NCBI RefSeq assembly: GCF_003473485.1
Contig: NC_053048.1
Coordinates: forward strand, 35,770,755 to 35,834,754
DNA: 64,000 nt
Direction: 5' to 3'
DNA from: Medicago truncatula
Lineage: Eukaryota > Streptophyta > Magnoliopsida > Fabales > Fabaceae
The position numbers were made by a program, and so were the translations under genes. Position 1 is the stretch's first letter; each line of letters starts with the position of its first letter. Shown in pieces: positions 10,575 through 44,932 of the stretch. The notes beneath the pieces are model-generated. The model made no database searches. It was given only the letters and a program-made list of their open reading frames with translations, and was not told the origin of the DNA.

Positions 10575-11101
10575 AGAACAAGTTCTTCACTACCTTGTTT
10601 AACAAAGGCAATATTTATTTTGAACACTAACCGGAACTTATTTTTTGTTATGTTTCAATATTCAATTTAATGGTAATTTGTAGGTTTCTGAAACTCTTTT
10701 GTCTTACATGTATAAGCATTCTCCAAAAAACAAAAAATTGTATATGCATGAAGTGGGATATTGCTATTAGTTCTGCTTTCTGTCTTACATGAAATTGTCA
10801 ATAGCTTGAGAAAGTAACTATCAAAGGATTAATAAAAAACAATGGTCATGCCTGTCTCTATGAGCAAGCAAAGAAAATACTAATTAAGAAAGATAGTTCG
10901 TTTGTAAATATGTCTTAAAATATTATTCTAATCTTTTCAAAGAAAACTGAAGACTTTTATTTTGGTTGTTAGTAATAGAACTACGTGCTTTCATCTTGTA
11001 GTTGTTATTTAGACTAAACATGACAAGTTAGGCCTCCTAGCCTTGACCTTAAAAGAACATTTTCTTTACCAAATGAAGGAGTTCTCTTACTCTATATATA
11101 T
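10575..11101. other. Kiwellin distal promoter and promoter of the interrupted plus kiwellin
   Basis: Matches 43303-43840 in copy 2. The last bases, CTTACTCTATATATAT, are the TATA region of a plus-strand kiwellin whose 5' leader resumes at 28787. The retrotransposon splits them. Confidence 0.65.
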
Positions 11102-14029
11102 TGTCATACCCCAATTTTGGACCGTTTAAAATCTCTTGTCCGTATTTTAAAATGGTTCACGTTCCCTTTTATTCGTTTTTTTTTACCATTTAAAATTCGG
11201 GTTTCTTGTCTTTAGTCATTCAAAAAGTTTTTATTTTTACATTTAAATCAACGTTCGCATTTCACAACAATTAAAACCGTCTCACTTTCATTTTTATGAC
11301 GCATTTTTGTTATATAGTCTTTTTAGTCGTAACGATCATGTCTAAAAAAAGAGAAGGCCTAATCGCATTTTAAAAGGCGTATCTTTTTAATCATTTCAAC
11401 CGAAATTTCGGCAGGGAGGATACTTTGAAGTACCTCATGTCAGATTTCGAAGGGGCTTTTTATTTTTTTAGTTTGTTTATTATTATTTTTTTTTATTTTA
11501 TTATTATTTTTTTTTTAAAAAAAAACAAAGAAAGGAAAGTCACGTGAGTGACTTTCTTTCTTCCTTCCTCTTTTCTTTTCTTTTTCTTATTTTTTTTTAT
11601 ATTTTTTTATGTTTTTTTTTATTTTTTTTTATTATTATTTATTTTATTGATTTATTTATTTATTTGTTAAAGTCTTTTTCTCCAAGTCTCAGCTGCAGGG
11701 GTATTTTGGTCTTTGATCTGTACCAGAGCCAACCCTAGTTTGTCACTATAAATACACTGTCCAATCATTGGGAAATGGTCCGAAAATCACTGTAGCCGCA
11801 TCAGAGTCAGAAAACGGGTCAGATTGGTCCCCATCACATAGAAAACACTTTTCCCTTTTCTCTCTCTTTCCAAATACGAATCAAACACCAAAAATCACAA
11901 AAAAGATGAACATCACCAACAACATTCATGAATATTCATGAACATTCATCCTCATAACTTTTTACCAGAAATCAACATAAACACCACAAATTCATAAAAC
12001 CAACTCAAATCAACACATAACAAAACAAAGCGAACCGAACCGGAGCAAAAGGGACGCGCCTGAACCGGATCGGAGAGAGAGCAGATCCAAACTTGGAATC
12101 AGCGTGAGGTCGCGAAGAAGAAAGAAGAGAACCGGACCGGAGCAAAAAGAGCAGGTTGGAGCAAAAAGAACAGATCGTGACGGATTCAACTCGAGGTAAA
12201 GATGTAGAAACTTTCTCTTTCACGTTTTTGTGCTTTCTTTGTAAAAAAAAAAATTAAATTCAAACTCAGATCTACTCCGTTTGGGACTTGTTTTCAAAAA
12301 TCTAAGCTCGGATTCACGTAAAGCAGGAAAATGGATGTTTAAAAGTGCAAAAAATTTCTGAATCGGAGCAAATTTTTTTACTCCGGCGGCGGCGCCGCCA
12401 CCGTAAGGCGACCGGCCGCCGCGCCGGAGTTAGACACCAATCGGAGAAGATGACCGGAATTCTAGAGAGAGGTCAGACTCTCTCTCTCTAGAATTCAAAG
12501 AGGAGAGAAGTTTTTTTGTGTTTTGTGTTGTTTTTTTTGTTGAAGTCCCTTTTTATACTACACTTGTTTTTGTCCAATCCTATATACGTGCGTACATGCT
12601 CTTTGGTGCTCCCTCGCGTTATGAGCCATCAGATCTGAATCGTTCCTTGATCTGATGGCTACTGTGTGTTTTGTTTTTGAATCATGTGTGTGTCTATTTG
12701 GGTGAACATTGGTATGCTTTCTGTTCAAACCGTCGGATCTATGATCTGACGGTCACTGTGTTTCCTTCTCTATTTTGTGTTTTTTTTAAACCCTTGGATC
12801 TTTGATCCAATGGCTATGATGAGATTTTGGGATTCAGATCTGGACCTCTGGATTCATCCAACGGCCCAGATTTGATCCTGCTGAGCCAATGTTTTATTAT
12901 TTCTTATTTTTATTTATCTTTATTTTTAAATACTGTTTTTTTACATTTTTTGACATTTTGTGTTTAGAAAAATTCTAAAAAAAAGTTTTCTCACTATTTT
13001 AATTTTCTCTAATTTTAAAAGTCCATCCTATTTATTTTTTTTCTTTTAATTTTTTTTTATTTATTTCTTATATGATGATCTTAATTATTATTTGTCTTAA
13101 TTCTTGCTTATTATTTCTTATGTCTCATTCATCATAATATTTCTTGTGATTACTAACTATTTAATTTTTTTGTCTTGAATCATAGCATGCACATTTAATT
13201 TTCCCATTATTTTATTTTGTCATTGACTTAGTGTGTATAAATAGGAAATTGGTGTAATTTTATTTCTTGCATTTTTATTTTGGCATAAAGGCCTTAGGGT
13301 TGTATTTAGGAATTGATGTAATAATGTAGGTAACACAAGCACCGACACTACCACGTTTTATTTACCGCTTTCCGTTAGTTTTTACGACGTTACGTTAGTT
13401 TTCACCGTTAGTTTAGAAAAATCATTTTCTCAAAAAGTCAAATATGCAAAACTTCAAAAATCATTTTCTTAATAACATTTTTCCTTTATTTTTTCTTAAT
13501 CAAACTCTCAATCAATTTTAATTCAACTTCAATCATTTTCAAAATTTAAAATCAATTAACTTCACTCATTTCTTTTATCTCATGCCTTGAGGCCTCTTTC
13601 TCTTCTTAAAACCCATTTCGAAAAATCTTAAAATCAACCTAACCCACTAAAGAAATTTTTGAGTGGAACTACGTCGGTTTTGATCCCTTTCCCAAAAAGG
13701 GTACGTAGGCAGAGGACTCGTCCTTCCAAATCAAATAAAAATAACCAAAAACATACTTCTTCTCCCTCCATTCTTTCACTTAGATTTTAGGTAATAATTT
13801 TTTCAAATAAGCAACAAAGTTAGCACAAGATAATCTAGGTAAGAGGTTCCTATGGAATACCATAGACGCTTAGGGTGCTAGCACCTTCCCTTCGCGTAAC
13901 CAACCCCCGAATCCAAAGTCTCGAAGGGGTTTTTACTCATTTTTTCCCTTCCCAAGAATAAAAATCGAGAGTTCAAAGATTGACGATTCAAATCAATTAA
14001 TGGTTTGACATCTGAAAATCGTGAGCACA
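11102..14029 (+). repeat. 5' LTR of Ogre-type element
   Basis: 2928 bp, TG...CA ends, nearly identical to 25846-28786. It contains a GC-rich patch near 12380-12430, a long inverted repeat around 12456-12497 (GAATTCTAGAGAGAG and its complement), and three neighbouring hairpins with GGATC/GATC-like cores between 12624 and 12813. Confidence 0.95.
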
Positions 14030-14033
14030 GAAA

Positions 14034-14051
14034 TGGCGACTTCACTGGGGA
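14034..14051 (+). other. Primer binding site
   Basis: TGGCGACTTCACTGGGGA starts four bases after the LTR end. It fits the complement of the 3' end of a plant tRNA-Arg, the primer usual for Ogre elements. Primer identity is from family knowledge. Confidence 0.75.
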
Positions 14052-14759
14052 TATTAGATCCTACGCGGGTTAAACCCACCTTACTTTCTTTATTTTGTGC
14101 TTTATTACTTGTTTATACTTTGTAAATATTTGCTTACATGTTTACCTTATTACGTGAGGGGTGAGAAAATAAGCTCTACACCCGAGCTCGAGGGAAATAT
14201 AAGATAGGAGTGGTAAACTCATAGTGGCATACCGAGAGTATACTCGTGTCTTGACACATGTGAGATAACCACACTTAGCGGAGGAGCTTGATGTGATATA
14301 TGTCGGCGTGTGTTTTCACGTTTAGACTTTATTACTCTTAAGTTTCCATTGAAGCTAAGGACCTTTAGTAACCCTTAACCCATCTTGGCCTTTTAGGATG
14401 TAGTGCGGTGGCTAACTGAGTGTTTTCTCGGATTTAGTCGACACGCGATACTACACTCAAATGAGACTTTCCTACGAACGTTGTTGGACCGGGTGTTTTC
14501 TCGGTATCCGATAATATTCGGAAGTGGTCAATGACTTTGGGAACCTCGGTAGAACCCTTGTTACAAGTGCAATTTAAACCATAGTCCTTACCAAATGGCG
14601 TTGTTACCCTTGACTCCAACATTGTGGAACTTACCCTCACCATGTATTCTATGTACTTGAGCATTATCATACATACATGCATTCATTCATAAACATATTT
14701 TCTCATCCATTGAAATATTGAAGGACTTATATAGGTTTTTTTTATAAACATCATAGGTT
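14052..14759 (+). other. Retrotransposon leader
   Basis: Untranslated leader between primer site and ORF1. No feature beyond short open frames. Confidence 0.6.
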
Positions 14760-16184
14760 ATGGAGGTTGTTGGAAGGAGGACCCACGGGTATAAATTCAA
14801 GGCACCGGATACAGAGAGTTTAGAGGGTTTGAGGGGTTTGACGAAGATGTTGAAAAATCCGGGTCATTTTCAGGAGCGGTATGGTAATTTACTCGACATT
14901 CTCAAGACAAAAGTGGATGTAATGCTTCTCAATACTTTGGTCCAGTTCTATGATCCGATTTACCATGGCTTCACATTCCCAGACTTTCAGCTCTTCCCAA
15001 CTCTAGAGGAGTATTCCCATTGGGTTGGTTTACCGGTGCTCGATGAAGTACCCTTTCATGCCTTTGGGCCCATTCCTAAAATCCCTACCATCGCAAAAGC
15101 CCTTCACCTTGAAGTAGCCGACATAAAAGACAAGTTCACAACCAAAGACGGTCTCCCATGCTTACCTTACAACTTCCTTCACCAAAAGGCCACCACTTGT
15201 TTCGAGAAATCCAAAACCGATGATTTTGAGTCTATCCTTGCCCTGCTTATCTATGGTATAGTCCTCTTCCCGAGAGTTGACAAGTTTGTTGACATGAATG
15301 CCATACGGGTCTTCTTAACCCAGAACCCGGTTCCTGTTTTACTCGCTGACACGTATGTTGCTATTCATGATCGCACTAGTCATGGAAAAGGGACCATCGT
15401 CTGTTGTACACCTTTACTCCACCGCTGGATTACTTCACACTTACCCCGTCCCAGTATTAGACCAGAACCTATCCCTTGGTCCCAAAAGCTCATGACTTGG
15501 ACCCCAAAGGACATAATCTGGTTCAACCCATCTTGTGACCCAGAGTTTATTATTGACAGTTGTGGTGACTTCAACAATGTACCTCTTCTTGGTACGCAGG
15601 GAGGAATTAGCTACATCCCAATTCTTGCGAGACGACAGTTTGGGTATTATATGGAGATGAAGCCTGTGTACCTCATCCTAGATAGGGATTTCTTCCTCTA
15701 CAAAAAAGATGATGCAAATCAAAGAGTGCAGTTCGAGAAAGCTTGGTATTCCATTGTCAAGAAAGATAAGAATCAGTTAGGAAAGAGATCGGTTATCGCC
15801 CATGAAGTTTATGTCCAATGGGTTATTGATCGAGCCAATAAATTGAAGATGCCATACCCACGACAAAGGATTGCAACATCAACCGTCCCAGCTATACCTT
15901 TACCTTTACCTCCCGAGTCCTTAGAAGGGTATCAAAAGCAGTTGGATATCGAAAGGCGTGAGAAGTCCATATGGGAAATGAAGTACCGCAAGAAGGATCA
16001 GGAGTATGAGGCTGTGATGGCCCTACTAGACCAAGAAGCCTATGATAGCCACAAGAAAGATGTGATAATCGCCCAGCTGACAAAGAGTATCAAGGAGAAA
16101 GATGCCGCGCTTGATCGAATTCCCGGGCGGAAGAAGAAACGTATGGATCTCTTTGATGGGCCGCATTCTGATTTTGAGGAGTAG
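14760..16184 (+). CDS. Ogre ORF1 (extra ORF before gag)
   Basis: About 474 residues. It lies between the primer site and gag on the coding strand, the hallmark position of Ogre ORF1. The central part (GLTKMLKNPGHFQERYG; FPDFQLFPTLEEYSHWVGLP) resembles the plant mobile domain shared with aminotransferase-like plant proteins. The C-terminus is charged and probably coiled. Function in the element is not known. Confidence 0.8.
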   Translation: MEVVGRRTHGYKFKAPDTESLEGLRGLTKMLKNPGHFQERYGNLLDILKTKVDVMLLNTLVQFYDPIYHGFTFPDFQLFPTLEEYSHWVGLPVLDEVPFHAFGPIPKIPTIAKALHLEVADIKDKFTTKDGLPCLPYNFLHQKATTCFEKSKTDDFESILALLIYGIVLFPRVDKFVDMNAIRVFLTQNPVPVLLADTYVAIHDRTSHGKGTIVCCTPLLHRWITSHLPRPSIRPEPIPWSQKLMTWTPKDIIWFNPSCDPEFIIDSCGDFNNVPLLGTQGGISYIPILARRQFGYYMEMKPVYLILDRDFFLYKKDDANQRVQFEKAWYSIVKKDKNQLGKRSVIAHEVYVQWVIDRANKLKMPYPRQRIATSTVPAIPLPLPPESLEGYQKQLDIERREKSIWEMKYRKKDQEYEAVMALLDQEAYDSHKKDVIIAQLTKSIKEKDAALDRIPGRKKKRMDLFDGPHSDFEE

Positions 16185-16402
16185 CTCGGTTCAGAGGCTT
16201 GAGAGTCTTTCAGTTTGTTTTTGATGTTTTTGTGTAGTTACGGAGTCTATCCCTTGGTTCACTTTGTTGAAAGGGAATTATCTTGTTTTATTTTGAAAGT
16301 TTATCCCTTGTCTTTGTTGTTAGAAAGGGAATTATCTTGTTTTACTTTGAAAGTTTATCTCTTGGCTTTGTTGTTAGAAAGGGATTTATCTTGTAATCAA
16401 CT

Positions 16403-18487
16403 TTGTTTTTTTATGATTTGTTTAGGTTGGTATGTTTACAAAACTGCTTCTATAGGTCCTTCAATAAAAATAAAAAAAATATATATAAAAATTGCATATT
16501 TTGGCATATAGCATATCATGCATCATATTGCATTCATAAAAAGTATCAAAATCCAAGTCTCATACTCTCCTCATTTCTGCCTCAGAAAAGCAAAGTGGCC
16601 CGGCGTATTCAGTACAAACCCACTCGCATTCACAACACTCGAGCTCATATCAAGAAAAGGATGTTAGCGGCAGAACAGGAAAACGCTCAGCTCAGAGAGG
16701 AACTGGTTAACCTCAAGGGGGAGATGGAAAGAATGGCACTTATGATGGAAACTATGATGGCTGAGAGAGAGCAAGCAGCAATCTCCAATTTAACTCCTGT
16801 TGTGGTCGTCACAGCTGCACCTGAGGGTCCCCCGCAACCATCTCCGACTACTACTACAACTATCGGTCTCACCCAGCCTCTGATGACTGATTTTTCTTCC
16901 GGTAATATGGCAACTATGGGCAACTCAGGCTTCCGTCCTCTTGGCCCCCAGGGTCCCTTTGCTACTCCTCAGTTTTCCATGCCTTCAGGCTACCCTTGGG
17001 GCATGCCGATTGCAACCAACGGGGGTTTTGGTCCAGGCGCTATTGAAATGCCTGTCACACAGGGTCAACAGACTTCGGCACATTTCCAGATGAGTCAACC
17101 GATTCCTCAAGCTACCATGACTCAAGCAGGTCCTACTGTGCATATTGGGCCACAACATGAAGAGCAGATTTATCACTCCGACAGTATAATGGGGGATGAT
17201 AAAGCAATCGATTGGGAAGAAAGGTTCGGTGCTCTAGAGAAGAAGATGAGTAATATGCGGGGGAAAGAAACAGTCGTCCAAAGCATATATGACCTTTGCT
17301 TAGTACCAGATGTAAACATACCTCCAAAGTTCAAGATGCCTGTATTTGAGAAGTATCAAGGGGACACATGTCCACAAAATCATCTAACTATGTATATTAG
17401 GAAGATGATAGCTTACAAGAATAATGTTCCCTTACTCATTCACTGCTTCCAGGATAGTTTGACTGGTCCGGCACATACCTGGTTCATGGGGTTGAAAGGA
17501 GTCACTACTTTTGAACAGTTGGCTGAGGCCTTCATGCAACAGTACAAATATAATACCTATCTGGCGCCAAGTCGCAAAGAGTTGCAGTCCTTAACCCAGA
17601 AAGATAAAGAATCGTTCAAAGAATACGCACAACGCTTCATTCAAAAAGCTGCTCAGATTCGTCCTCCCTTGGATGAGAGGGAACTTTCAGAATTGTTCTA
17701 TGAAACCCTGAGCCCTTGTTATTCAGAAAAGATGATTGTCTGTGCATCACAGAAGTTCACTGATTTGGTGGAAACAGGAATGCGTATCGAGGAGTGGGCT
17801 CGTAAGGGAGCAGCTGTTTCGGGAAGTTCTTCAGGTGGTTCTTCAGGGGTTTCGTCCAATGGTAATAAGAAATTTGGGAATGGTTACCCAAAGAGGAGTG
17901 CTCAAGAGGTTGGCATGGTGGCTCATGGAGGACCTCAGCCCGTGTACCCTAATCACCCCTTTGTTGCCAACATCACCCCACAAATGACTGCGCCCCAGAA
18001 CCCAAACTATCAATCACCCAGACCTCAAGGACCCGCACCATACTACCCCCCATTATACCAACCACTATACAACCTACAACAATTCCCTCAACAACCATAT
18101 TACTCCCAACAACCATACCAACAAAGACCACAGCAACAACCCCGTCCTCAGGTTCCTCACAATCAGCAGAATCAAAGGCAACAATTTGACCCCTTGCCAA
18201 TGACCTATGGAGCATTGCTCCCTTCTTTACTTGCACAGAATCTGGTCCAAACAATACCACCTCCTCGCATTCCAGACCCTCTCCCACGCTGGTACCGTCC
18301 GGACCTTCATTGTATTTACCATCAAGGGGCACCAGGCCACGATGTGGAGCGTTGTTTTGCTCTTAAGAAAGAGGTTCAGAAACTGATAAATAGTAAAGAG
18401 TTAACCTTCACCGACCCTGATGCTGTAGCTCAGAACAATCCTCTGCCTACTCATGGGCCTGCTGTTAATATGATTCAAGACGATTAG
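16403..18487 (+). CDS. Ogre gag region
   Basis: Contains a coiled N-terminal stretch, a Gln/Pro/Gly-rich low-complexity part, the capsid core of the retrotransposon gag family (FKMPVFEKYQGDTCPQNHL, WFMGL, AEAFMQQYKYN) and near the end a Tat-type zinc-knuckle-like motif (C-x2-H-x4-GH-x4-C in HCIYHQGAPGHDVERC). The true start is probably about 16661, inside the listed range. Confidence 0.85.
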   Translation: MFFYDLFRLVCLQNCFYRSFNKNKKNIYKNCIFWHIAYHASYCIHKKYQNPSLILSSFLPQKSKVARRIQYKPTRIHNTRAHIKKRMLAAEQENAQLREELVNLKGEMERMALMMETMMAEREQAAISNLTPVVVVTAAPEGPPQPSPTTTTTIGLTQPLMTDFSSGNMATMGNSGFRPLGPQGPFATPQFSMPSGYPWGMPIATNGGFGPGAIEMPVTQGQQTSAHFQMSQPIPQATMTQAGPTVHIGPQHEEQIYHSDSIMGDDKAIDWEERFGALEKKMSNMRGKETVVQSIYDLCLVPDVNIPPKFKMPVFEKYQGDTCPQNHLTMYIRKMIAYKNNVPLLIHCFQDSLTGPAHTWFMGLKGVTTFEQLAEAFMQQYKYNTYLAPSRKELQSLTQKDKESFKEYAQRFIQKAAQIRPPLDERELSELFYETLSPCYSEKMIVCASQKFTDLVETGMRIEEWARKGAAVSGSSSGGSSGVSSNGNKKFGNGYPKRSAQEVGMVAHGGPQPVYPNHPFVANITPQMTAPQNPNYQSPRPQGPAPYYPPLYQPLYNLQQFPQQPYYSQQPYQQRPQQQPRPQVPHNQQNQRQQFDPLPMTYGALLPSLLAQNLVQTIPPPRIPDPLPRWYRPDLHCIYHQGAPGHDVERCFALKKEVQKLINSKELTFTDPDAVAQNNPLPTHGPAVNMIQDD

Positions 18488-18544
18488 GAAGAGGCTCGCA
18501 TTCTCTCTGTAGGTGATATCAAGACTCCTCTGGTACCGATACAT

Positions 18545-20116
18545 GTGAAAATGTGTAAAGCAACTCTCTTCAACCACAATCATGAAGCTTGTGACATATG
18601 TTCGATGGATCCTCGTGAATGTATACAAGTCCAGAATGATGTGCAGGGTCTCCTAAATAGAAGGGAACTTGTGGTTACAAGGGAACCCGAGAGCAAGGAC
18701 GTCTGTGTTGTCACTCCGGTATTCAGAGCCAGGAGGCCGCTAGTGATAAACCCTAACAGTACAAAGCCCGTTGGTACTCCCTTGGTAATCTGTGTGCCTA
18801 GGCCCACGCCTACTACTGCTCAGAAAGCTGTACCCTACAAGTATGAAGGCACGATTCTAGAGCCCGGAAGTGAGACAACTTCACCTGTTGCTGTGGATAA
18901 TATCGCAGAGAATAGCCGGATTTTGAGGAGTGGCCGCATCCTTCCTACGGTGGGTCCGAAGAGTGTTAGTGTTCCGATCGATGAGCCAGTAAAAGAGCGA
19001 AACGCCGGTAAAGGTAAAGCTGGGGAGCAGGCCAAAGAGTTTGACTTTGAGGATGCCGATGAAGTTTTGAAGCTGATCAAGAAGAGTGAATACAAGGTGG
19101 TGGACCAGCTGTTACAAACTCCTGCGAAGATTTCCATCATGGCCCTGTTATCAAGTTCTGGTGCTCATCGGGATGCCCTGAGGAAAGTACTAGACCAGGC
19201 ATTTGTGGATTATGATGTAACTCTGGGTCAATTCGAAAGCATTGTGGGGAATGTGACCGCGTGTAACAGTCTGACTTTCAGTGATGAGGATCTCCCAGCG
19301 GAGGGGAATAAGCATAATCAAGCGTTACTCATCTCTGTACTTTGCAGAACAGACTCGTTATCCAACGTCCTGATAGATACCGGCTCTGCACTTAATGTGA
19401 TGCCCAAGTCAACCCTCGACCAATTGGCGTACTCCGAGGCTCCTTTGAGACTTAGCAAGGTGACGGTAAGGGCCTTCGATGGAACTAGGAGATCGGTGTA
19501 TGGTGAGGTAGATTTGCCAATTTCGGTCGGCCCACATGAATTTCAGGTTACTTTCCAAGTCATGGAAATCCAGGCTTCTTTCAGCTGTTTGCTCGGCAGA
19601 CCATGGATTCATGACGCTGGGGCTGTGACATCTACTCTCCATCAGAAATTGAAGTTTGTAAGTCGTGGAAAGTTGATCACTGTGAGTGGCGAATCGGCCT
19701 TTTTAATCAGCAATTTGTCTGCTTTCTCTGTTATCGGTGGTAGTGGTTCAGACGGGCCATCATTCCAAGGGTTCTCTGCCGAAGAAAGTGTCGGTAAAAT
19801 TGAGACTTGTATGGCTTCGTTGAAGGATGCCCGGAGAGTAATTCAGGAAGGCAAAACCGAAGGCTGGGGTCAGCTAGTGGAGTTGCCAGAAAACAAGCGT
19901 AAGGAGGGAATTGGTTTCCTTAACAGTAAGCCTGGGATGTTCGACCCTACCAGAGGTTCTTTCCACAGTGCTGGTTTCATTCATGATTCGCCAGAGACCA
20001 ATGCAATTTTAGATGATGCACCTGGAGGAGTGACACCGGTATTTGTGACGCCGGGAGGAGCTTGCTGCAACTGGATTGCTGTTGACATTCCTTCTGTGAC
20101 ACCCCGCTCTGAGTAA
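18545..20116 (+). CDS. Ogre protease region
   Basis: Carries the aspartic protease signature LIDTGSALNVMP followed by LLGRPWIHDAG, typical of Ty3/gypsy protease. The sequence after it, up to RT, is where the Ogre family is known to have a spliced intron. Confidence 0.85.
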   Translation: MKMCKATLFNHNHEACDICSMDPRECIQVQNDVQGLLNRRELVVTREPESKDVCVVTPVFRARRPLVINPNSTKPVGTPLVICVPRPTPTTAQKAVPYKYEGTILEPGSETTSPVAVDNIAENSRILRSGRILPTVGPKSVSVPIDEPVKERNAGKGKAGEQAKEFDFEDADEVLKLIKKSEYKVVDQLLQTPAKISIMALLSSSGAHRDALRKVLDQAFVDYDVTLGQFESIVGNVTACNSLTFSDEDLPAEGNKHNQALLISVLCRTDSLSNVLIDTGSALNVMPKSTLDQLAYSEAPLRLSKVTVRAFDGTRRSVYGEVDLPISVGPHEFQVTFQVMEIQASFSCLLGRPWIHDAGAVTSTLHQKLKFVSRGKLITVSGESAFLISNLSAFSVIGGSGSDGPSFQGFSAEESVGKIETCMASLKDARRVIQEGKTEGWGQLVELPENKRKEGIGFLNSKPGMFDPTRGSFHSAGFIHDSPETNAILDDAPGGVTPVFVTPGGACCNWIAVDIPSVTPRSE

Positions 20117-20396
20117 TGTGTTTGTCTTGTCTTTTGTTGTTTTTTTTGTTTGTTTTTTAGAAAACTCCTTTCGTTCTGCCCAAGGCGAAAGTGAAATCAT
20201 GTAGGGCTTTGTTTTGCTTCTAGTACTTTTATTACAAATAAAAATCGTCGTTTCTTTCACGGCTTTTATTACTTTTTATTTTTTGTTGCTTTTTCTGGAA
20301 AAATGGTAATACAAAAATCCAAAAAAATCATTCTCTTTTTCTTTTAAATTTCAAAACCAAAGGTCTGCATTTACTCATTAAAATCAATCATGAATC

Positions 20397-23300
20397 ATGT
20401 GCAGACTGAACATAAGTGAATCCGTTGAACACAGTGACCCCATGCTTTCTCCCAACTTTGAGGTCCCGGTTTACGAGGCTGTGGCAGAGGAGGATGAGGA
20501 GATCCCGAATGAGATCAAATGGATGTTGGAACAAGAAAGGAAGACAATTCAACCTCATCAGGAGGAGATAGAAATCATCAATCTGGGTACTGAGGAAGAC
20601 AAGAAAGAAATCAAGATTGGGGCATCGTTGGATGTATCTGTCAAGAAAAGAGTAATTGAGCTTATCAGAGAATATGTTGATATATTCGCATGGTCATACA
20701 AAGACATGCCGGGTCTAGACCCTGATGTCGTTGAACACAGACTGCCTTTGAAGCCTGAGTGTCCTCCGGTAAAGCAGAAATTGAGAAGATCTCATCCTGA
20801 TATGGCCCTCAAGATCAAAGAGGAAGTGCGAAAGCAAATTGATGCAGGTTTCCTAGTCACATCAGAGTATCCTCAATGGTTGGCCAACATAGTGCCTGTT
20901 CCAAAGAAAGATGGCAAAGTCAGAATGTGTGTTGATTATCGGGACTTGAACAAGGCTAGTCCGAAGGATAATTTTCCTTTGCCTCACATTGATGTATTGG
21001 TTGATAACACTGCTAAGTGCAAGGTTTTCTCCTTCGTGGACGGTTTCTCCGGCTACAATCAGATCAGGATGGCTCCTGAGGATAGAGAAAAGACGTCTTT
21101 CATCACACCCTGGGGTGCTTTCTGCTATGTGGTGATGCCATTTGGTTTGATAAATGCTGGTGCCACTTACCAAAGGGGTATGACCAAAATCTTTCATGAT
21201 ATGATTCACAAAGAAATTGAGGTCTACGTAGATGATATGATTGTTAAGTCTGGCACAGAAGAAGAACATGTTGAGTATTTGTTGAAGATGTTTCAGCGGT
21301 TGAGAAAGTACAAGCTCCGGTTGAATCCCAACAAATGTACTTTCGGTGTTAGATCTGGTAAACTCCTAGGCTTTATCGTCAGTCAAAAGGGTATTGAAGT
21401 TGATCCCGACAAGGTCAGAGCCATCAGAGAAATGCCTGTTCCAAAGACAGAGAAGCAAGTCAGAGGTTTTCTTGGTAGACTCAATTATATCTCCAGATTT
21501 ATCTCTCACATGACCGCCACATGTGGACCAATTTTCAAGTTACTCCGCAAGGATCAAGGGGTGAAGTGGAATGATGATTGTCAGAAGGCTTTTGATCAAA
21601 TCAAAGAATATCTGTTAGAACCTCCAATTCTTGTTCCTCCAGTTGACGGAAGACCTTTGATCATGTATTTAACAGTACTGGAAGATTCCATGGGCTGTGT
21701 TTTGGGTCAACAAGATGAAACCGGAAAGAAAGAGCACGCTATCTACTATTTGAGTAAGAAGTTCACTGATTGTGAGTCCCGATATTCTGTACTTGAGAAA
21801 ACTTGTTGTGCTTTAGCTTGGGCTGCCAAGCGTCTCCGTCATTATATGATTAATCATACAACTTGGTTGATATCCAAGATGGATCCTATCAAGTACATAT
21901 TTGAGAAGCCAGCTTTAACTGGAAGGATTGCTCGCTGGCAGATGTTATTGTCCGAGTATGATATCGAGTATCGCACTCAGAAAGCAATCAAAGGTAGCAT
22001 CTTGGCAGAACATTTGGCTCATCAACCAATCGAAGACTATCAACCAATCAAATTCGACTTCCTAGATGAAGAGGTTATGTATCTAAAAGCAAAAGATTGT
22101 GACGAACCAGTGTTCGGTGAAGGTCCTGATCCGGAATCCGAATGGGGTTTGATATTTGATGGAGCTGTTAATGTCTATGGAAGTGGAATTGGTGCGGTAC
22201 TCATTACCCCTAAGGGTACTCACATCCCTTTTACTGCGAGGTTACGTTTTGATTGCACAAACAATATCGCAGAGTACGAAGCTTGCATCATGGGTATCGA
22301 GGAAGCCATCGATTTGAGGATCAAGAAAATTGTCATTTATGGAGATTCCGCTCTTGTGATTAACCAGATCAAAGGAGAATGGGAAACTCGTCATCCTGGA
22401 TTGATTCCCTACAGAGATTATGCAAGGCGTTTGCTGACTTTCTTCAACAAAGTAGAGTTACATCATGTGCCCCGCGATGAGAATCAAATGGCAGATGCTT
22501 TAGCTACTCTATCCTCAATGATCAATGTGAATGGTCACAATACTGTGCCAGTAATCAATGTCCAATTTCTCGACCGACCTACTTATGTGTTTGTAGCTGA
22601 AGCAATTGATGATGACAAGCCATGGTATCATGATATCCAAGTTTTCCTTCAAACTCAAAAGTACCCACCTGGGGCATCCAACAAGGACAAGAAAACATTG
22701 AGAAAATTGTCAAGCCGTTTCTTCCTTAACGAAGACGTTTTGTATAAAAGGAACTTTGATGGGGTCCTACTTAGATGTGTGGATAAGCATGAAGCAGAAA
22801 AATTGATGCGAGAGATTCATGAAGGCTCTTTCGGAACTCACTCATGTGGGCACGCCATGGCGAAGAAGATATTGAGAGCTGGGTACTACTGGATAACAAT
22901 GCACGCTGATTGCTACAATCATGCCAAGAGATGCCACAAATGTCAAATCTATGCTGACAAGATTCATATACCACCATCTATGCTCAATGTCATCTCTTCC
23001 CCGTGGCCCTTCTCTATGTGGGGCATTGACATGATTGGTCGGATTGAACCAAAAGCTTCCAATGGGCATCGCTTCATATTAGTGGCTATCGATTATTTCA
23101 CCAAGTGGGTTGAAGCAGCATCTTACGCCAATGTGACCAAGCAGGTAGTGGTCAGATTTATCAAGAACAACATCATCAGCCGCTACGGTGTTCCCAACAG
23201 AATCATCACAGACAATGGCACAAATCTGAATAACAACATGATGAAAGAGTTGTGCGATGACTTCAAGATTCAACATCACAATTCTTCTCCTTACAGACCT

Positions 23301-23870
23301 CAGATGAATGGGGCAGTTGAAGCTGCAAACAAGAACATCAAGAAGATCATACAGAAGATGGTAGTTACTTATAAGGACTGACATGAAATGTTACCCTACG
23401 CTTTGTATGGATACCGTACCTCAGTGCGAACCTCGACAGGGGCAACCCCTTTCTCTTTGGTATATGGTATGGAGGCTGTACTACCTATAGAGGTTGAGAT
23501 TCCTTCTTTAAGAGTCTTGATGGAAGCTGAATTGTCTGAAGCTGAATGGTGCCAGAGCAGGTATGACCAGTTGAATTTGATTGAGGAAAAACGTATGGCT
23601 GCTTTGTGTCATGGACAGTTATATCAGTCAAGGATGAAACAAGCATTCGATAAAGGAGTCCATCCCCGCGAATTCAAGGAAGGAGATCTTGTGCTCAAAT
23701 GTATCAAATCCTTTCAACCAGATCCTAGGGGCAAATGGACGCCAAACTATGAAGGTCCCTACGTGGTGAAGAGAGCTTTCTCTGGTGGTGCTTTAATTCT
23801 TACAAATATGGATGGAGAGGAGTTACCTCGTCCTGTGAATTCTGATGCAGTCAAGAAATACTTTGTCTAA
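20397..23870 (+). CDS. Ogre reverse transcriptase, RNase H and integrase region
   Basis: Domains in order: RT (FVDGFSGYNQI, YVDDMIVKS), RT-linked RNase H (AIYYLSKKFTDCE), a second archaeal-type RNase H (LIFDGAVNVYGSGIGAVL), integrase zinc finger (HSCGHAMAKK...CHKC), integrase core (DYFTKWVEA, ITDNGTNLNN) and an integrase C-terminal part ending near 23870. The second RNase H marks the Tat/Ogre lineage. The region is close to complete. Confidence 0.9.
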
Positions 23871-23891
23871 ATATATAAAAGAACAGCTCGG

Positions 23892-24539
23892 TAGGTCGAA
23901 AACCTGAAAGGGCGGCTTAAACCAAAAATGAGCGTCTCGATGGATCGAAAACCCGAAAGGGCGGTCCAGGCAAAAATTAGAGACAAAAAAAAAAAAAAAA
24001 AGGAAATTATCCTGATAGATCGAAAACCCGCAAGGGCGATCTATGCAAAAATTAAGGATCGAGACAAGTAACTGCATCAGATGAAACATCACTCGCCCGA
24101 GACACCTTGACTGTCAGAAGTTCTCTAATATTGAAGCATCCAAACTATGGAATTCAAAGTGGTTAAGAAGTATAGCGGTTATTGTGTTCAATGTACCTAT
24201 CCCTTATAATTACCATATTCCAACTCTTTGTAATCTATGGTGCCATGCCTTTAGCCGGTCACCATTTCTATTAAATCAATTTGAGCATGTGCCCCTTTGT
24301 TGGAATTCTTGTTTATTCTATGTGCAAAAAAATCTTTCTTTCGTTTTTAGTATTAGTATTTGAAGCAAAAATTTTGAAAACTTTTCTAAAGATTTTATGT
24401 TTTCTTTCCAAAAAAAAAAAAAAAAAAAAAAAAAAAAACAAAAATGACAAACATATTATCTTTAAAAACATGTATCACATAAGTATGTGTCAACAGTTGG
24501 TCCGAAACAAGCAGGTTCAACAAAGAAGAAATAGTCATT

Positions 24540-24578
<39 letters not shown>

Positions 24579-24692
24579 CGCCCTGGTGGATCGAAAACCC
24601 GAAAGGGCGATCCAGGTAAAAATTAGGGGCATACAAAAAGAGAAAAAGAAAAATGTCTCCCCGGTGGATTGAAAATCCGAAAGGACGATCCA
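23892..24692 (+). repeat. Five dispersed 28-nt hairpins in the element's 3' region
   Basis: Copies at 23892-23919, 23941-23968, 24016-24043, 24587-24614 and 24665-24692, each exactly 28 nt. All can fold the same way: 7-bp outer stem, AAAA bulge on the 5' side, 3-bp inner stem, GAAA or GCAA loop. Paired changes keep the stems (see findings). Each is followed by a CAAAAATTAG-like tail. Poly(A) runs lie between the copies. Confidence 0.85.
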
Positions 24693-25299
24693 GGCAAAAG
24701 TTAGGGATTTCAAAAAAAATATATATACAAAAAGGCAATGACTATTCAAACATGAAAATACGGTGTTGCATTGGTGAAATGGCGACTTCTACCCCGGTTT
24801 GGGAGGACTTACCCCAGTAGTATGTTTAAGGGCTGTACCCCAACAATGGTTGATTCATTCCCTGTGACTTTATTCCCAATGAAGGTTTCGAGTGTTCGTC
24901 CAGTGATGCCGGGCCGTTCTCCTTGTAGACCTGCCCAGTCCTGCCTCAACAATCTTACCATTATGCCGTCATATGAGTCTCATACATACTCATTCATTCA
25001 TGCATACATAGCACGCATATAAATATCATCCATACATAGTTGCATTTTTACCCAATGACTTATTTCAATATCCTTAGATATCACCCCCAGCGTGTCTAAC
25101 TCCAAAATGTCATCAAATCAAACATGTGGCAGGTCTCATCAGTAATCAGTCTATACAATTCCCCTTTGTCTTCAGACAAATTCCTTGTTCCCCTCAACTT
25201 TATCTTTATCAAGTCATTCCCTTGATACCAAGCTTTACAATGTCTTCACTTTTACCGTGTGTTTGCTATCCCACAATGTTAGCAAACCCTATCGGTCCG

Positions 25300-25584
25300 T
25301 CTTGTCTTTACTTTCGCCACTCGTCGGCAAATCATGTCTTTACTTTCGCCACCCGTCGGCAAATCATGTCTTTACTTTCGCCACTCGTCGGCAAATCATG
25401 TCTTTACTTTCGCCACTCATCGGCAAATCATGTCTTTACATTCGCCACTCGTCGGCAATCAATCATGTCTTTACATTCGCCACTCGTCGGCAATCAATCA
25501 TGTCTTTACTTTCGCCACTCGTCGGCAATCAATCATGTCTTTACTTTCGCCACTCGTCGGCCAATCATGTCTTTACTTTCGCCT
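25300..25584 (+). repeat. Tandem array, 32-35 bp unit, about nine copies
   Basis: Unit with TCATGTCTTTACTTTCGCC and ACTCGTCGGCAA. Starts at 25300, 25332, 25364, 25396, 25428, 25463, 25498, 25533, 25565 (last partial). Four steps are 32 bp, then three are 35 bp from an added ATC, then 32 again. It lies in the 3' untranslated region of the retrotransposon, a place known in legume Ogre-like elements to breed tandem repeats. Confidence 0.92.
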
Positions 25585-25827
25585 TGAAACATTGTCATTT
25601 ATACTTACCTATCATTTCTTTCCCCAGTGATACCTATCCATTTGGCTCCCAGTCAGCCTCTGCATCATCTTTACCTTCATACTTACATCATATTCAGTCG
25701 TATTATCACATTCATCAGCATTACATCTCTGGCGTTTCAAATGGTCCAAAATTGGCGTTTTCATATATTTAAGTCTCTCCGACCCTTTGGTTTAAAAAGT
25801 TCTCTTTTAAAACCTTTGTGACGAAGA

Positions 25828-25845
25828 AACTTAAATAGGGGCATC
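25828..25845 (+). other. Polypurine tract region
   Basis: AACTTAAATAGGGGCATC directly before the 3' LTR; the AAATAGGGG core serves as plus-strand primer in this lineage. Confidence 0.65.
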
Positions 25846-28786
25846 TGTCATACCCCAATTTTGGACCGTTTAAAATCTCTTGTCCGTATTTTAAAATGGT
25901 TCACGTTCCCTTTTATTCGTTTTTTTTTACCATTTAAAATTCGGGTTTCTTGTCTTTAGTCATTCAAAAAGTTTTTATTTTTACATTTAAATCAACGTTC
26001 GCATTTCACAACAATTAAAACCGTCTCACTTTCATTTTTATGACGCATTTTTGTTATATAGTCTTTTTAGTCGTAACGATCATGTCTAAAAAAAGAGAAG
26101 GTCTAATCGCATTTTAAAAGGCGTATCTTTTTAATCATTTCAACCGAAATTTCGGCAGGGAGGATACTTTGAAGTACCTCATGTCAGATTTCGAAGGGGC
26201 TTTTTATTTTTTTAGTTTGTTTATTATTATTTTATTTTATTTTATTATTATTTTTTTTAAAAAAAAAAACAAAGAAAGGAAAGTCACGTGAGTGACTTTC
26301 TTTCTTCCTTCCTCTTTTCTTTTCTTTTTCTTATTTTTTTTTTTTTTTTTTTTATTTTTTTATGTTTTTTTTTATTTTTATTTTTATTATTATTTATTTT
26401 ATTGATTTATTTATTTATTTGTTAAAGTCTTTTTCTCCAAGTCTCAGCTGCAGGGGTATTTTGGTCTTTGATCTGTACCAGAGCCAACCCTAGTTTGTCA
26501 CTATAAATACACTGTCCAATCATTGGGAAATGGTCCGAAAATCACTGTAGCCGCATCAGAGTCAGAAAACGGGTCAGATTGGTCCCCATCACATAGAAAA
26601 CACTTTTCCCTTTTCTCTCTCTTTCCAAATACGAATCAAACACCAAAAATCACAAAAAAGATGAACATCACCAACAACATTCATGAATATTCATGAACAT
26701 TCATCCTCATAACTTTTTACCAGAAATCAACATAAACACCACAAATCCATAAAACCAACTCAAATCAACACATAACAAAACAAAGCGAACCGAACCGGAG
26801 CAAAAGGGACGCGCCTGAACCGGATCGGAGAGAGAGCAGATCCAAACTTGGAATCAGCGTGAGGTCGCGAAGAAGAAAGAAGAGAACCGGACCGGAGCAA
26901 AAAGAGCAGGTTGGAGCAAAAAGAACAGATCGTGACGGATTCAACTCGAGGTAAAGATGTAGAAACTTTCTCTTTCACGTTTTTGTGCTTTCTTTGTAAA
27001 AAAAAAAATTAAATTCAAACTCAGATCTACTCCGTTTGGGACTTGTTTTCAAAAATCTAAGCTCGGATTCACGTAAAGCAGGAAAATGGATGTTTAAAAG
27101 TGCAAAAAATTTCTGAATCGGAGCAAATTTTTTTACTCCGGCGGCGGCGCCGCCACCGTAAGGCGACCGGCCGCCGCGCCGGAGTTAGACACCAATCGGA
27201 GAAGATGACCGGAATTCTAGAGAGAGGTCAGACTCTCTCTCTCTAGAATTCAAAGAGGAGAGAAGTTTTTTTGTGTTTTGTGTTGTTTTTTTTGTTGAAG
27301 TCCCTTTTTATACTACACTTGTTTTTGTCCAATCCTATATACGCGCGTACATGCTCTTTGGTGCTCCCTCGCGTTATGAGCCATCAGATCTGGATCGTTC
27401 CTTGATCTGATGGCTACTGTGTGTTTTGTTTTTGAATCATGTGTGTGTCTATTTGGGTGAACATTGGTATGCTTTCTGTTCAAACCGTCGGATCTATGAT
27501 CTGACGGTCACTGTGTTTCCTTCTCTATTTTGTGTTTTTTTTAAACCCTTGGATCTTTGATCCAATGGCTATGATGAGATTTTGGGATTCAGATCTGGAC
27601 CTCTGGATTCATCCAACGGCCCAGATTTGATCCTGCTGAGCCAATGTTTTATTATTTCTTATTTTTATTTATCTTTATTTTTAAATACTGTTTTTTTACA
27701 TTTTTTGACATTTTTGTGTTTAGAAAAATTCTAAAAAAAAGTTTTCTCACTATTTTAATTTTCTCTAATTTTAAAAGTCCATCCTATTTATTTTTTTTCT
27801 TTTAATTTTTTTTTTATTTATTTCTTATATGATGATCTTAATTATTATTTGTCTTAATTCTTGCTTATTATTTCTTATGTCTCATTCATCATAATATTTC
27901 TTGTGATTACTAACTATTTAATTTTTTTGTCTTGAATCATAGCATGCACATTTAATTTTCCCATTATTTTATTTTGTCATTGACTTAGTGTGTATAAATA
28001 GGAAATTGGTGTAATTTTATTTCTTGCATTTTTATTTTGGCATAAAGGCCTTAGGGTTGTATTTAGGAATTGATGTAATAATGTAGGTAACACAAGCACC
28101 GACACTACCACGTTTTATTTACCGCTTTCCGTTAGTTTTTACGACGTTACGTTAGTTTTCACCGTTAGTTTAGAAAAATCATTTTCTCAAAAAGTCAAAT
28201 ATGCAAAACTTCAAAAATCATTTTCTTAATAACATTTTTCCTTTATTTTTTCTTAATCAAACTCTCAATCAATTTTAATTCAACTTCAATCATTTTCAAA
28301 ATTTAAAATCAATTAACTTCACTCATTTCTTTTATCTCATGCCTTGAGGCCTCTTTCTCTTCTTAAAACCCATTTCGAAAAATCTTAAAATCAACCTAAC
28401 CCACTAAAGAAATTTTTGAGTGGAACTACGTCGGTTTTGATCCCTTTCCCAAAAAGGGTACGTAGGCAGAGGACTCGTCCTTCCAAATCAAATAAAAATA
28501 ACCAAAAACATACTTCTTCTCCCTCCATTCTTTCACTTAGATTTTAGGTAATAATTTTTTCAAATAAGCAACAAAGTTAGCACAAGATAATCTAGGTAAG
28601 AGGTTCCTATGGAATACCATAGACGCTTAGGGTGCTAGCACCTTCCCTTCGCGTAACCAACCCCCGAATCCAAAGTCTCGAAGGGGTTTTTACTCATTTT
28701 TTCCCTTCCCAAGAATAAAAATCGAGAGTTCAAAGATTGACGATTCAAATCAATTAATGGTTTGACATCCGAAAATCGTGAGCACA
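25846..28786 (+). repeat. 3' LTR of Ogre-type element
   Basis: 2941 bp, near-identical to 11102-14029. Length differences are in T and A runs. Confidence 0.95.
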
Positions 28787-28829
28787 TATATCCATTAAAA
28801 TCTTAGTCTATATGCATCAATAATTGCAT

Positions 28830-29011
28830 GAGAATTAATGTTGACACATATGCATTGGCTGAAAAACACGAGAAATTTACTCAAATGCTCCTCAACAGTT
28901 AACTGCCGAGTTATGGAACCGGCTGCAGTTAACTACCGAGGAAAACTTCGACAATTAACTGTAATGGATTGATTTTGAACGTTTCAAACAATTGCAGTAT
29001 TATATTTATGC

Positions 29012-29084
<73 letters not shown>

Positions 29085-29688
29085 TAATAAGAATATCATT
29101 TAAATCTTGACCAAAAAAATAAAGAGCATTTAAGTACTCAAAAAACATTTCAATAAGTGTAAAAATTAAGCATTTGAATATTGTTTTGCAAATTACTTAA
29201 ATAAATAAAAAATCTTTGTGCACAATTATTTTAATGTAGAAAATATAACAATATATTATACCTTAAAAAAAATCGCTGTGCACAATTATTTTAACAATTT
29301 TTTTATTATTATTTTTATTTAAGTAATGTGCAAAACAATATTCAAATGCTTAAATTTTACACTGATTTAAATGTTATTCTTATTAAGATATATACGCATA
29401 AGTATAATACTGCAATTGTTTGAAACGTACCAAAATAATGATTGAAACATTCAAAATAAATAAATATTATTAATGACAATTTATGGTTTTTGTCAGAAAA
29501 AAACAGGTTTGAGGTTTCCTCGGCAGTTAACTGCCGAAGTTTTCAGTTTTCCTCGGTAGATTACTGCCGAATTTTTCCTCGGTAGTTAACTGCAGCCGGT
29601 TCCATAATTCGGCAGTTAACTGCCGAGGGATATTTGGATAAATTACTCGTGTTTCTCAGCCAATGCATATGTGTCAACAGCGATTCTC
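28830..29688. mobile_element. Mutator-like foldback element, 859 bp (copy 1)
   Basis: Long inverted repeats begin GAGAATTAATGTTGACACAT on the left; the right end read inward starts GAGAATCGCTGTTGACACAT. TAATTGCAT (9 bp) flanks both ends (28821-28829, 29689-29697), the usual Mutator duplication. The arms carry repeated GGCAGTTAACTGCC palindromes and the middle is an (AT)n run (about 29018-29082). The element sits in the 5' leader of the kiwellin pseudogene that follows, 7 bp before its ATG counting from the target duplication. The same insertion is at 44001-44932. Confidence 0.9.
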
Positions 29689-43814: not shown

Positions 43815-44068
43815 GTTCTCTTACTCTATATATATCCATTAAAATCTTAGTCTATATGCATCAATAATTACATGAGAATTGCTGTTGACACATATGCATT
43901 GACTGAAAAACACAAGTAATTTACTCAAATGCTCTTCGGCAGTTCTCTTACTCTATATATATCCATTAAAATCTTAGTCTATATGCATCAATAATTGCAT
44001 GAGAATTGTTGTTGACACATATGCATTGGCTGAAAAACACAAGTAATTTACTCAAATGCTCCTCGGCA
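43815..44068. repeat. 127-bp tandem duplication over promoter and foldback end
   Basis: The stretch beginning GTTCTCTTACTCTATATATATCC at 43815 starts again at 43942. Each unit holds the TATA box, the leader to TAATTRCAT and the first ~68 bp of the foldback element. It arose after that element inserted, and it doubles the TATA box. Copy 1 does not have it. Confidence 0.85.
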
Positions 44069-44262
44069 GTTAATTGCCGAGTTATGAAACCGGCTGCAGT
44101 TAACTGCCGAGGAAAACTTCGGCAGTTAACTGCTGAGGAAACCTCAAACCTGTTTTTTTTTTTTGACAAAAACCATAAATTGTTATTAATAATATTTATT
44201 GATTTTGAATGTTTCAATAATTATTTTGTACGTTTCAAACAATTGCAGTATTATACTTATGC

Positions 44263-44325
<63 letters not shown>

Positions 44326-44932
44326 TAATAATAATATCATTTAAATCTTGACCAAAAAAATAAAGAGCATTTAAATACTCAAAAAACATTTCAATAAGTG
44401 TAAAAATTAAGCATTTGAATATTGTTTTGCAAATTACTTAAATAAATAAAAAATCTTTGTGCACAATTATTTTAATGTAGAAAATATAACAACATATTAT
44501 ACCTTAAAAAAAATCGTTGTGCACAATTATTTTAACGATTTTTTTATTATTATTTTTATTTAAGTAATGTGCAAAACAATATTCAAATGCTTAAATTTTA
44601 CACTAATTTAAATGCTATTCTTATTAAGATATATACGCATAAGTATAATACTGCAATTGTTTGAAACGTACCAAAATAATTATTGAAACATTCAAAAACA
44701 ATAAATATTATTAATGACAATTTATGATTTTTGTCAAAAAAAAAAAACAGGTTTGAGGTTTCCTCGGCAGTTAACTGCCGAAATTTTCAGTTTTCCTCGG
44801 TAGATTACTGCCGAATTTTTCCTCGGTAGTTAACTGCAGCCGGATCCATAATTCGGCAGTAAACTGCCGAGGGATATTTGGATAAATTACTCATGTTTCT
44901 CAGCCAATGCATATGTGTCAACAGCGATTCTC
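44001..44932. mobile_element. Mutator-like foldback element, 932 bp (copy 2)
   Basis: Same element as 28830-29688, with TAATTGCAT at 43992-44000 and 44933-44941. Left end GAGAATTGTTGTTGACACAT, right end read inward GAGAATCGCTGTTGACACAT. Arms carry GGCAGTTAACTGCC palindromes; (TA)n run near 44268-44323. It lies in the leader of the chimeric kiwellin, 7 bp before the ATG counting from the target duplication. Confidence 0.9.

Follow-up and report, generated by a model that had tools for sequence, protein, structure and literature searches.

The window analyzed here, a stretch of 64,000 nt of Medicago truncatula DNA, contains an LTR retrotransposon of about 17.7 kb on the + strand (11102..28786), delimited by a pair of LTRs and bordered by a TATAT target site duplication at 11097-11101 and 28787-28791. 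The 5' LTR (11102..14029) and the 3' LTR (25846..28786), both on the + strand, are 99.15% identical across 2,943 aligned positions, and a primer binding site (PBS) region (GAAATGGCGACTTCACTGGGG; 14030..14050, + strand) follows immediately 3' of the 5' LTR. The internal region, likewise on the + strand, encodes a 475-aa ORF1 with a DUF7745 match (14757..16184; E 1.4e-123), a gag (Retrotrans_gag) and protease region (16397..20116), which in the window copy carries one in-frame stop between gag and protease, and a frame for reverse transcriptase (RT), RNase H, a second RNase H-like domain (RVT_3) and integrase (20394..23870). In the window copy this last frame has an in-frame stop at 23379-23381 within the integrase part and its final stop at 23868-23870, and an uninterrupted 1,158-aa frame including the integrase end is present in many other copies of the host genome. 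Between the pol stop and the 3' LTR lie about 2 kb of 3' untranslated region (UTR), which holds the hairpin array described below.

Judged by its sequence features, the element is of the Ogre type (Tat lineage, Ty3/gypsy), in agreement with the preliminary description of this DNA. It has an extra ORF, the 475-aa ORF1, upstream of gag, and RT_RNaseH and RVT_3 occur together in one ORF, a second RNase H-like domain being a trait of the Tat lineage. The gag-pro ORF ends at 20116 and the RT-RH-INT frame opens at 20394, leaving a spacer or putative intron of about 280 nt, and the gag-pro and RT-INT ORFs of Ogre elements lie about the same distance apart, with an average spacer or intron of 274 bp given in the available part of one account (PMC6317226). 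Large size and the extra ORF upstream of gag are shared with Mtr57/Ogre1 and Mtr70, the Ogre elements of M. truncatula, of which Ogre1 is listed as the largest of 85 families in this species in the available part of its description (PMC2533021). Also in common with Ogre elements is a long non-coding 3' region holding tandem repeats, and the Ogre 3' UTR is usually called hypervariable, according to the portion of a further source at hand (PMC7004042). In the window element, a tandem repeat of 32-35 nt with 8.5 copies occupies 25303-25583 of the 3' UTR, and similar sequence is present in the 3' UTR of the related loci L056 and L065.

Hairpin units and their arrangement

Five copies of a 28-nt sequence, all on the + strand and starting at 23892, 23941, 24016, 24587 and 24665, lie where the preliminary description had placed them and fold as it had proposed, with standard pairs in all 50 inner pair cells (45 Watson-Crick, 5 G-U and 0 A-C), an AAAA bulge in all five copies, and a loop that is GAAA in four and GCAA in one. 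The compensatory changes that it had listed are correct but incomplete. At the second stem pair (2-27) the double change from G-C to A-U is found in copy 3, as reported, but also in copy 1, which had been missed; the double change from A-U to G-C at pair 4-25 in copy 1 had gone unlisted; and the inner-stem change in copy 5 was confirmed as C-G to U-A at pair 12-21. The 28-nt hairpin itself is real but forms only the inner part of a larger unit, as every copy sits inside about 50 nt closed by an outer helix of 4-5 bp beyond the A-rich 3' strand. From the outside inward, the unit thus consists of the outer helix, an asymmetric internal loop, a 7-bp helix, the four-A bulge, a 3-bp helix and a mostly GNRA loop, and in the internal loop the strand GGCAAAAAU or GGCAAAAAUUA mostly faces GG or GA.

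Three of the units lie close behind the pol stop on the + strand, namely I-1 (23886..23933; outer helix GCUC/GAGC, inner 28 nt at 23892-23919), I-2 (23934..23984; GUCUC/GAGAC abutting I-1, inner 28 nt at 23941-23968) and I-3 (24009..24059; AUCCU/AGGAU, inner 28 nt at 24016-24043), the last with the GCAA loop. The other two, on the same strand, are II-2 (24580..24630; GCCCU/GGGGC, inner 28 nt at 24587-24614) and II-3 (24658..24707; UCCC/GGGA, inner 28 nt at 24665-24692). The first unit of this second triplet, which exists in other elements, is missing from the window copy, and a covariance model built from the five units found no sixth copy in the window. Poly-A runs of about 17 to 35 nt, whose length differs among copies, stand beside the hairpin clusters at 23985-24001, 24410-24444 and 24542-24574.

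The outer helix differs in sequence among the five copies while its pairing is kept by compensation. With a narrow register, pairing with the own partner beats every other one of the 120 possible partner assignments; with a freer register, 4 of the 120 reach its value. Random placement of an equal number of stem substitutions, under a star model with no tree, keeps all pairs with a P of ~1e-6 to 1e-4 at kappa 2-4, and with a P of 0.002-0.005 if every change is taken as a transition under the same treeless star model. None of 500 shuffles attained the covariation score of the five window sequences. Folding energy is clearly below that of shuffled sequences in three of the five units (0-2 of 200 shuffles as low) and is less telling for copy 1 and copy 5, where 18 and 45 of 200 shuffles, respectively, reached it.

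Across loci, the units are grouped as two triplets with similar internal spacing, which is about 48 and 67 nt in many of the loci, and many also have the second triplet about 570 nt after the first. In 18 of the 19 aligned elements (20 sequences minus L065) the first outer helix begins 14-22 nt past the pol stop, and in one it begins 48 nt past it. Among 87 distinct neighboring pairs at a spacing of 44-52 nt, the outer helices are 0 nt apart in 46 and 1 nt apart in 26 (72/87), and in the remaining 15 one outer helix is shorter than 4 bp. Contact between neighboring outer helices is kept despite changed sequences, with GCUC/GAGC beside GUCUC/GAGAC and AGCGU/GCGCU beside UCCC/GGGA. Because the first two units of each triplet abut, end-to-end stacking of their outer helices would be possible, and we infer from the sequences that such coaxial stacking may indeed take place.

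The loop of unit I-1 in the 19 aligned elements is GAAA in 10, GAAAA in 7 and AAAAGA in 2, so that 9 of the 19 (L109, L110, L112, L114 and L116-L120) have loops of 5 or 6 nt; a GAAAA pentaloop can adopt a GNRA-like fold in phage boxB RNA. Most elements have at most six units, and the deletion-derivative locus L044, which overlaps L043, L045 and L046, has nine, arranged as three triplets. In L057, L073, L121 and L122, an extra and simpler hairpin (GCUC, UGAG ... CUCA, GAGC) lies between I-2 and I-3 and resembles a decayed or derived unit, with neither bulge nor GNRA loop.

Selection on the structure in the host genome

The search space was one genome, that of the host, with 429,922,655 bases in 42 contigs. 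A core pattern with the four-A bulge has 3,562 matches in it (1,824 + 1,738), and the reversed-pattern control has 0 + 0; when parts of the stems and the A-strand were fixed and the bulge and loop left free, there were 2,518 + 2,359 matches, again with 0 + 0 in the control. The first 100 listed matches of this free pattern are all related copies and come from the initial 14.4 Mb of a single contig; their loop is GNRA in 91 and non-GNRA in 9, and their bulge is AAAA in 88. Bulges of other lengths are represented by 109 matches of a 3-A form and 26 of a 5-A form, against the 3,562 of the 4-A form, the patterns differing elsewhere as well. Pair 7-22 looks invariant, because a pattern with a compensated change at this pair gave 268 matches versus 744 for its control.

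An integrase protein search of the genome scored 150 matches out of 3,209 first-look candidates, and at least three hairpin units were found in 48 of the 48 elements examined from it, which comprise the best 30 (the window element included) and 18 picked across 83-94% identity; the hairpins of the 30 closest elements were listed by a script requiring 8 of 10 pairs. Stems that vary freely in copies elsewhere, which the preliminary description had named as the observation that would speak against a selected structure, were looked for in the host genome and not found. Scanning IMG/VR and GTDB contigs with sequence patterns turned up only matches that lacked the remainder of the unit, and an IMG/VR protein search revealed no relative.

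A sequence-only profile gave 512 matches, of which 36 without an anchor were dropped before counting, and yielded 230 distinct stretches, whose inner cells are paired in 2,163 of 2,300 cases. On the sense strand of this set of related, and hence not independent, copies there are 257 G-U versus 47 A-C cells. Because a GNRA string and a minimum of three A served as the anchor of each unit, the loop and bulge rates of this set are partly built in, and the count from the pattern with free bulge and loop (91/100 GNRA) serves as the unbiased check on both. When stem substitutions were re-placed branch by branch, the observed inner pairing of 95.6% exceeded the null maximum of 90.3% and was reached by 0 of 500 replicates; for the outer helix, the observed 67.6% was reached by 6 of 500, with a null maximum of 73.2%. 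The numbers of pair-keeping change events lie inside the null range for the inner pairs (102 versus a null mean of 93.5 and a maximum of 105) and for the outer pairs (49 versus a mean of 46.5 and a maximum of 63), and no double change on the same branch was found in this tree-based test. With its own partner, the outer helix comprises 4.31 bp versus 3.29 ± 0.07 with shuffled partners (maximum 3.49, 0/500; 168 distinct flank pairs), a count from which 18 of the 230 units were removed for having fewer than 8 inner pairs, and several of those removed carry a 3-A or 5-A bulge and were read in the wrong register; in 21 of 168 units the outer helix is shorter than 4 bp.

Fifty-five divergent units, 54 picked from the anchored units by sequence difference and one from the window, were aligned by MAFFT, and RNAalifold recovered all ten inner pairs from this alignment, six of them with changes on both sides; the outer helix was absent from the RNAalifold structure. 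Scored against the named structure, 95.6% of cells are paired in helix 2, 97.6% in helix 3 and 75.5% in the outer helix, and a control in which partners were slid by one position gave 46.5% and 48.5%. The number of paired cells, the number of cells with a change on both sides and the covariation score all exceed 500 of 500 shuffles, and two of the five measures lie within the shuffles, namely the pairs with a both-sides change (44/500) and further pair types (275/500). A phylogeny-aware G-test with APC and a branch-preserving null, modeled on R-scape, found none of the pairs significant; its best structural pair has an E of ~0.63, and four of its seven top pairs are inner-helix pairs. Families differ in the outer helix of unit I-1, which most of them form from GCUC and GAGC and another from AGCGU and GCGCU. 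Because shuffles ignore relatedness, the case for a structure rests on the combined tests, on the slid-partner control and on such changes at the same positions between families.

Further evidence comes from arrays that sit behind a pol without its middle, the RT, RNase H and integrase core being gone. Eight such loci were compared (L026, L027, L031, L033, L040, L055, L065 and L070; L043/L044, L047 and L052 were left out as overlapping loci of the same sites), and the deletion junction, which joins the equivalents of window positions 20506-20516 and 23320, is seen directly in four of them (L026, L027, L055 and L070), with partial matches in the other four. The pol remnant of 372-420 nt upstream of the array has stops in every frame, and one remnant used as a query gave 40 scored places, among 473 candidates, dispersed over the genome. 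Loci L065 and L043 (overlapping L044) have a polypurine tract and an LTR start in common with the window element. Over the 28 possible pairs among the eight loci, identity is 89.0% and the share of gaps 3.5% in hairpin columns, compared with 77.4% and 16.1% for the pol remnant and 79.9% and 21.8% for the linkers; as exceptions, the remnant is better conserved than the hairpins in three pairs, all involving L031, and the linkers are so in three. As the decayed pol remnant offers a reasonable neutral standard, these values point to purifying selection on the hairpins that is not for making pol. The derivative family is probably mobilized in trans, and a function required by trans-mobilized RNAs leaves export, stability, packaging and reverse transcription to be considered.

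Taken together, the changes on both sides of the helices in the 55 units, the excess of G-U over A-C, the constancy of bulge and loop and the retention in elements without a pol core lead us to regard the feature, with high confidence, as a sense-strand cis-acting structured RNA kept by selection, and the earlier proposal of a selected RNA structure is upheld to that extent. No Rfam family reaches its gathering score on the array, and a relaxed Rfam search of 23800-24800 gave five matches, all far below the gathering score (best E 0.76). A ribozyme was rejected, with no Rfam ribozyme family found at the array or in the window in scans at E up to 10, as were a miRNA precursor, because the arms are too short, and a readthrough signal, because the units recur far beyond the stop. 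A literature search with the sequence letters of the unit returned nothing, and a description of the array was not found among the entries listed for open-access full text on Ogre, on non-autonomous Ogre in Medicago and on plant retrotransposon RNA structure, though an earlier mention may exist elsewhere in the literature; the available parts of four Ogre descriptions make no mention of a conserved hairpin array (PMC2533021, PMC6317226, PMC7004042 and PMC3305785). A similar placement of repeats is known from soybean Gmr9/GmOgre, which, according to the accessible part of the source, also has repeats between the coding region and the 3' LTR, but these are five families of DNA minisatellites for which that part reports no structure or compensatory change, the comparison being one of descriptions only (PMC3305785).

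Possible roles of the array

Because its shape is kept by paired mutations, even in relatives without enzyme genes, the array probably controls the fate of the element RNA. Our results lead us to propose that it may act as a cis-acting RNA module of the Ogre 3' UTR, in which the A bulge, the A-rich strand and the loop, which are likely contacts because they are the least-changing unpaired parts, would be recognized and the helices would serve as a scaffold. With several units, the array would presumably bind a single kind of protein, from the host or the element, in multiple copies, and, with less certainty, the bound protein might export intron-retaining genomic RNA from the nucleus and stabilize it in the style of the retroviral CTE or of the mouse IAP and musD transport elements. 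To this explanation as a whole, a structured module serving as a protein platform with a role in export or stability, we assign a probability of roughly 0.4, and the role in export or stability of intron-retaining RNA, taken by itself, is likewise a tentative assignment that falls short of even odds.

The CTE, RTE and MTE transport elements are located near the 3' end, and their fold differs from that of the array. Like the array, CTE, IAP RTE and musD MTE are structured cis RNAs of an LTR element, the export activity of the array being putative. In the available part of a 2025 review, the mouse IAP RTE and musD MTE are described as structured cis-acting RNAs that aid nuclear exit of the full-length RNA, and LTR-retrotransposon RNA export in plants is said to be without direct study (PMC12786077). 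Ogre retains its intron in part of its transcripts, as stated in the portion of the source at hand (PMC6317226), and this intron retention, the RTE/MTE precedent and the position of the array outside the intron are the reasons for favoring export or stability; that same position, however, means that the array would act alike on spliced and unspliced RNA, which is a point against export. In some legumes, few repeats are as abundant as Ogre elements, and a conserved RNA device in their 3' UTR would give a handle on RNA sorting between splicing, translation and packaging. With thousands of natural variants and a family that keeps the array without the pol core, the question is directly testable by comparative and reporter work.

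The array would be needed for mobility of the element on either of the two leading readings, of which we rank export or stability first and packaging second, as nearly as likely. Retroviral packaging stem-loops are neighboring hairpins with conserved unpaired bases in the 5' leader, and the array shares with them the adjacent hairpins but lies in the 3' UTR. As a packaging or dimerization signal, the array would have its stacked double hairpins bound by the Ogre Gag, or would let two RNAs pair, for entry into particles. Adjacent repeated hairpins at fixed spacing would fit a multivalent coat protein, and deletion derivatives that need packaging in trans keep the array, but from a 3' UTR position outside the intron it cannot alone separate unspliced from spliced RNA, and loop-loop kissing is not expected of GNRA loops, which are not self-complementary. 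On balance, we consider this role unlikely, though a serious contender. Slightly more doubtful still is the broader idea that the two triplets are a multivalent RNA platform that routes intron-retaining RNA, for export and then packaging, and is parasitized by the derivatives, which together with the PBS-like island discussed below would make the 3' UTR an Ogre assembly hub and the array the first cis-acting RNA signal to be defined in the plant Ogre lineage.

A role in export or stability can also be set against protection of the RNA from nonsense-mediated decay. The Rous sarcoma virus stability element shields RNA in this manner, and a structure just past the stop could recruit a protein that keeps UPF1 off a very long 3' UTR. 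The first unit starts 14-48 nt past the pol stop in the 19 aligned elements and about 2 kb of 3' UTR lie ahead of the LTR, which favors such a shield, but the second triplet stands some 570 nt further downstream and the array is kept in deletion derivatives with broken frames (though their RNA needs stability too), and we regard this role as improbable.

Downstream of the array, at 68 nt past its end, the 3' UTR contains a second PBS-like 14-mer (GAAATGGCGACTTC; 24776..24789, + strand), possibly related to the array, which is an exact repeat of the start of the PBS at 14030-14043 (E 0.005). Yeast Ty3 has a bipartite primer site, of which this island is reminiscent. A scan of 39 loci, one of them the window, found TGGCGACT in 11; its flanks vary from family to family, in the manner of a conserved island. 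The hairpins might be imagined to act with this island in reverse transcription or circularization, which the exact 14-nt repeat at 24776 and the family-specific flanks would favor, but the island was not found in the other 28 of the 39 loci, some of them incomplete, and is tied to the hairpins by nearness only, so that we think such a role quite improbable.

Growth of functionless tandem repeats together with gene conversion in the hypervariable 3' UTR would account for the array with no role at all. Varied tandem repeats are known from Ogre 3' UTRs, in the available part of one source (PMC7004042), the window 3' UTR also has the 32-nt array at 25303-25583, and the pairwise phylogenetic test was not significant; compensation in both helices, the sense-strand G-U bias, a bulge and loop that stay the same in most copies, and hairpins that in deletion derivatives are conserved above the level of linkers and pol remnant nevertheless make this explanation very improbable. 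Least credible of all is a DNA-level feature, a cruciform or dyad binding site, for although inverted repeats are present in the DNA, the wobble is strand biased (257 G-U versus 47 A-C among related copies; 5 versus 0 in the window) and the antisense strand folds less stably in three of the five window units and about equally in two.

Outside the element, the window has matches to the MIR2629 family (Rfam RF04063) in two facing pairs, at 28885-28953 and 29565-29633 and at 44056-44124 and 44809-44877. These matches sit at the ends of a repeated element, which suggests that the MIR2629 family derived from an inverted-repeat transposon.
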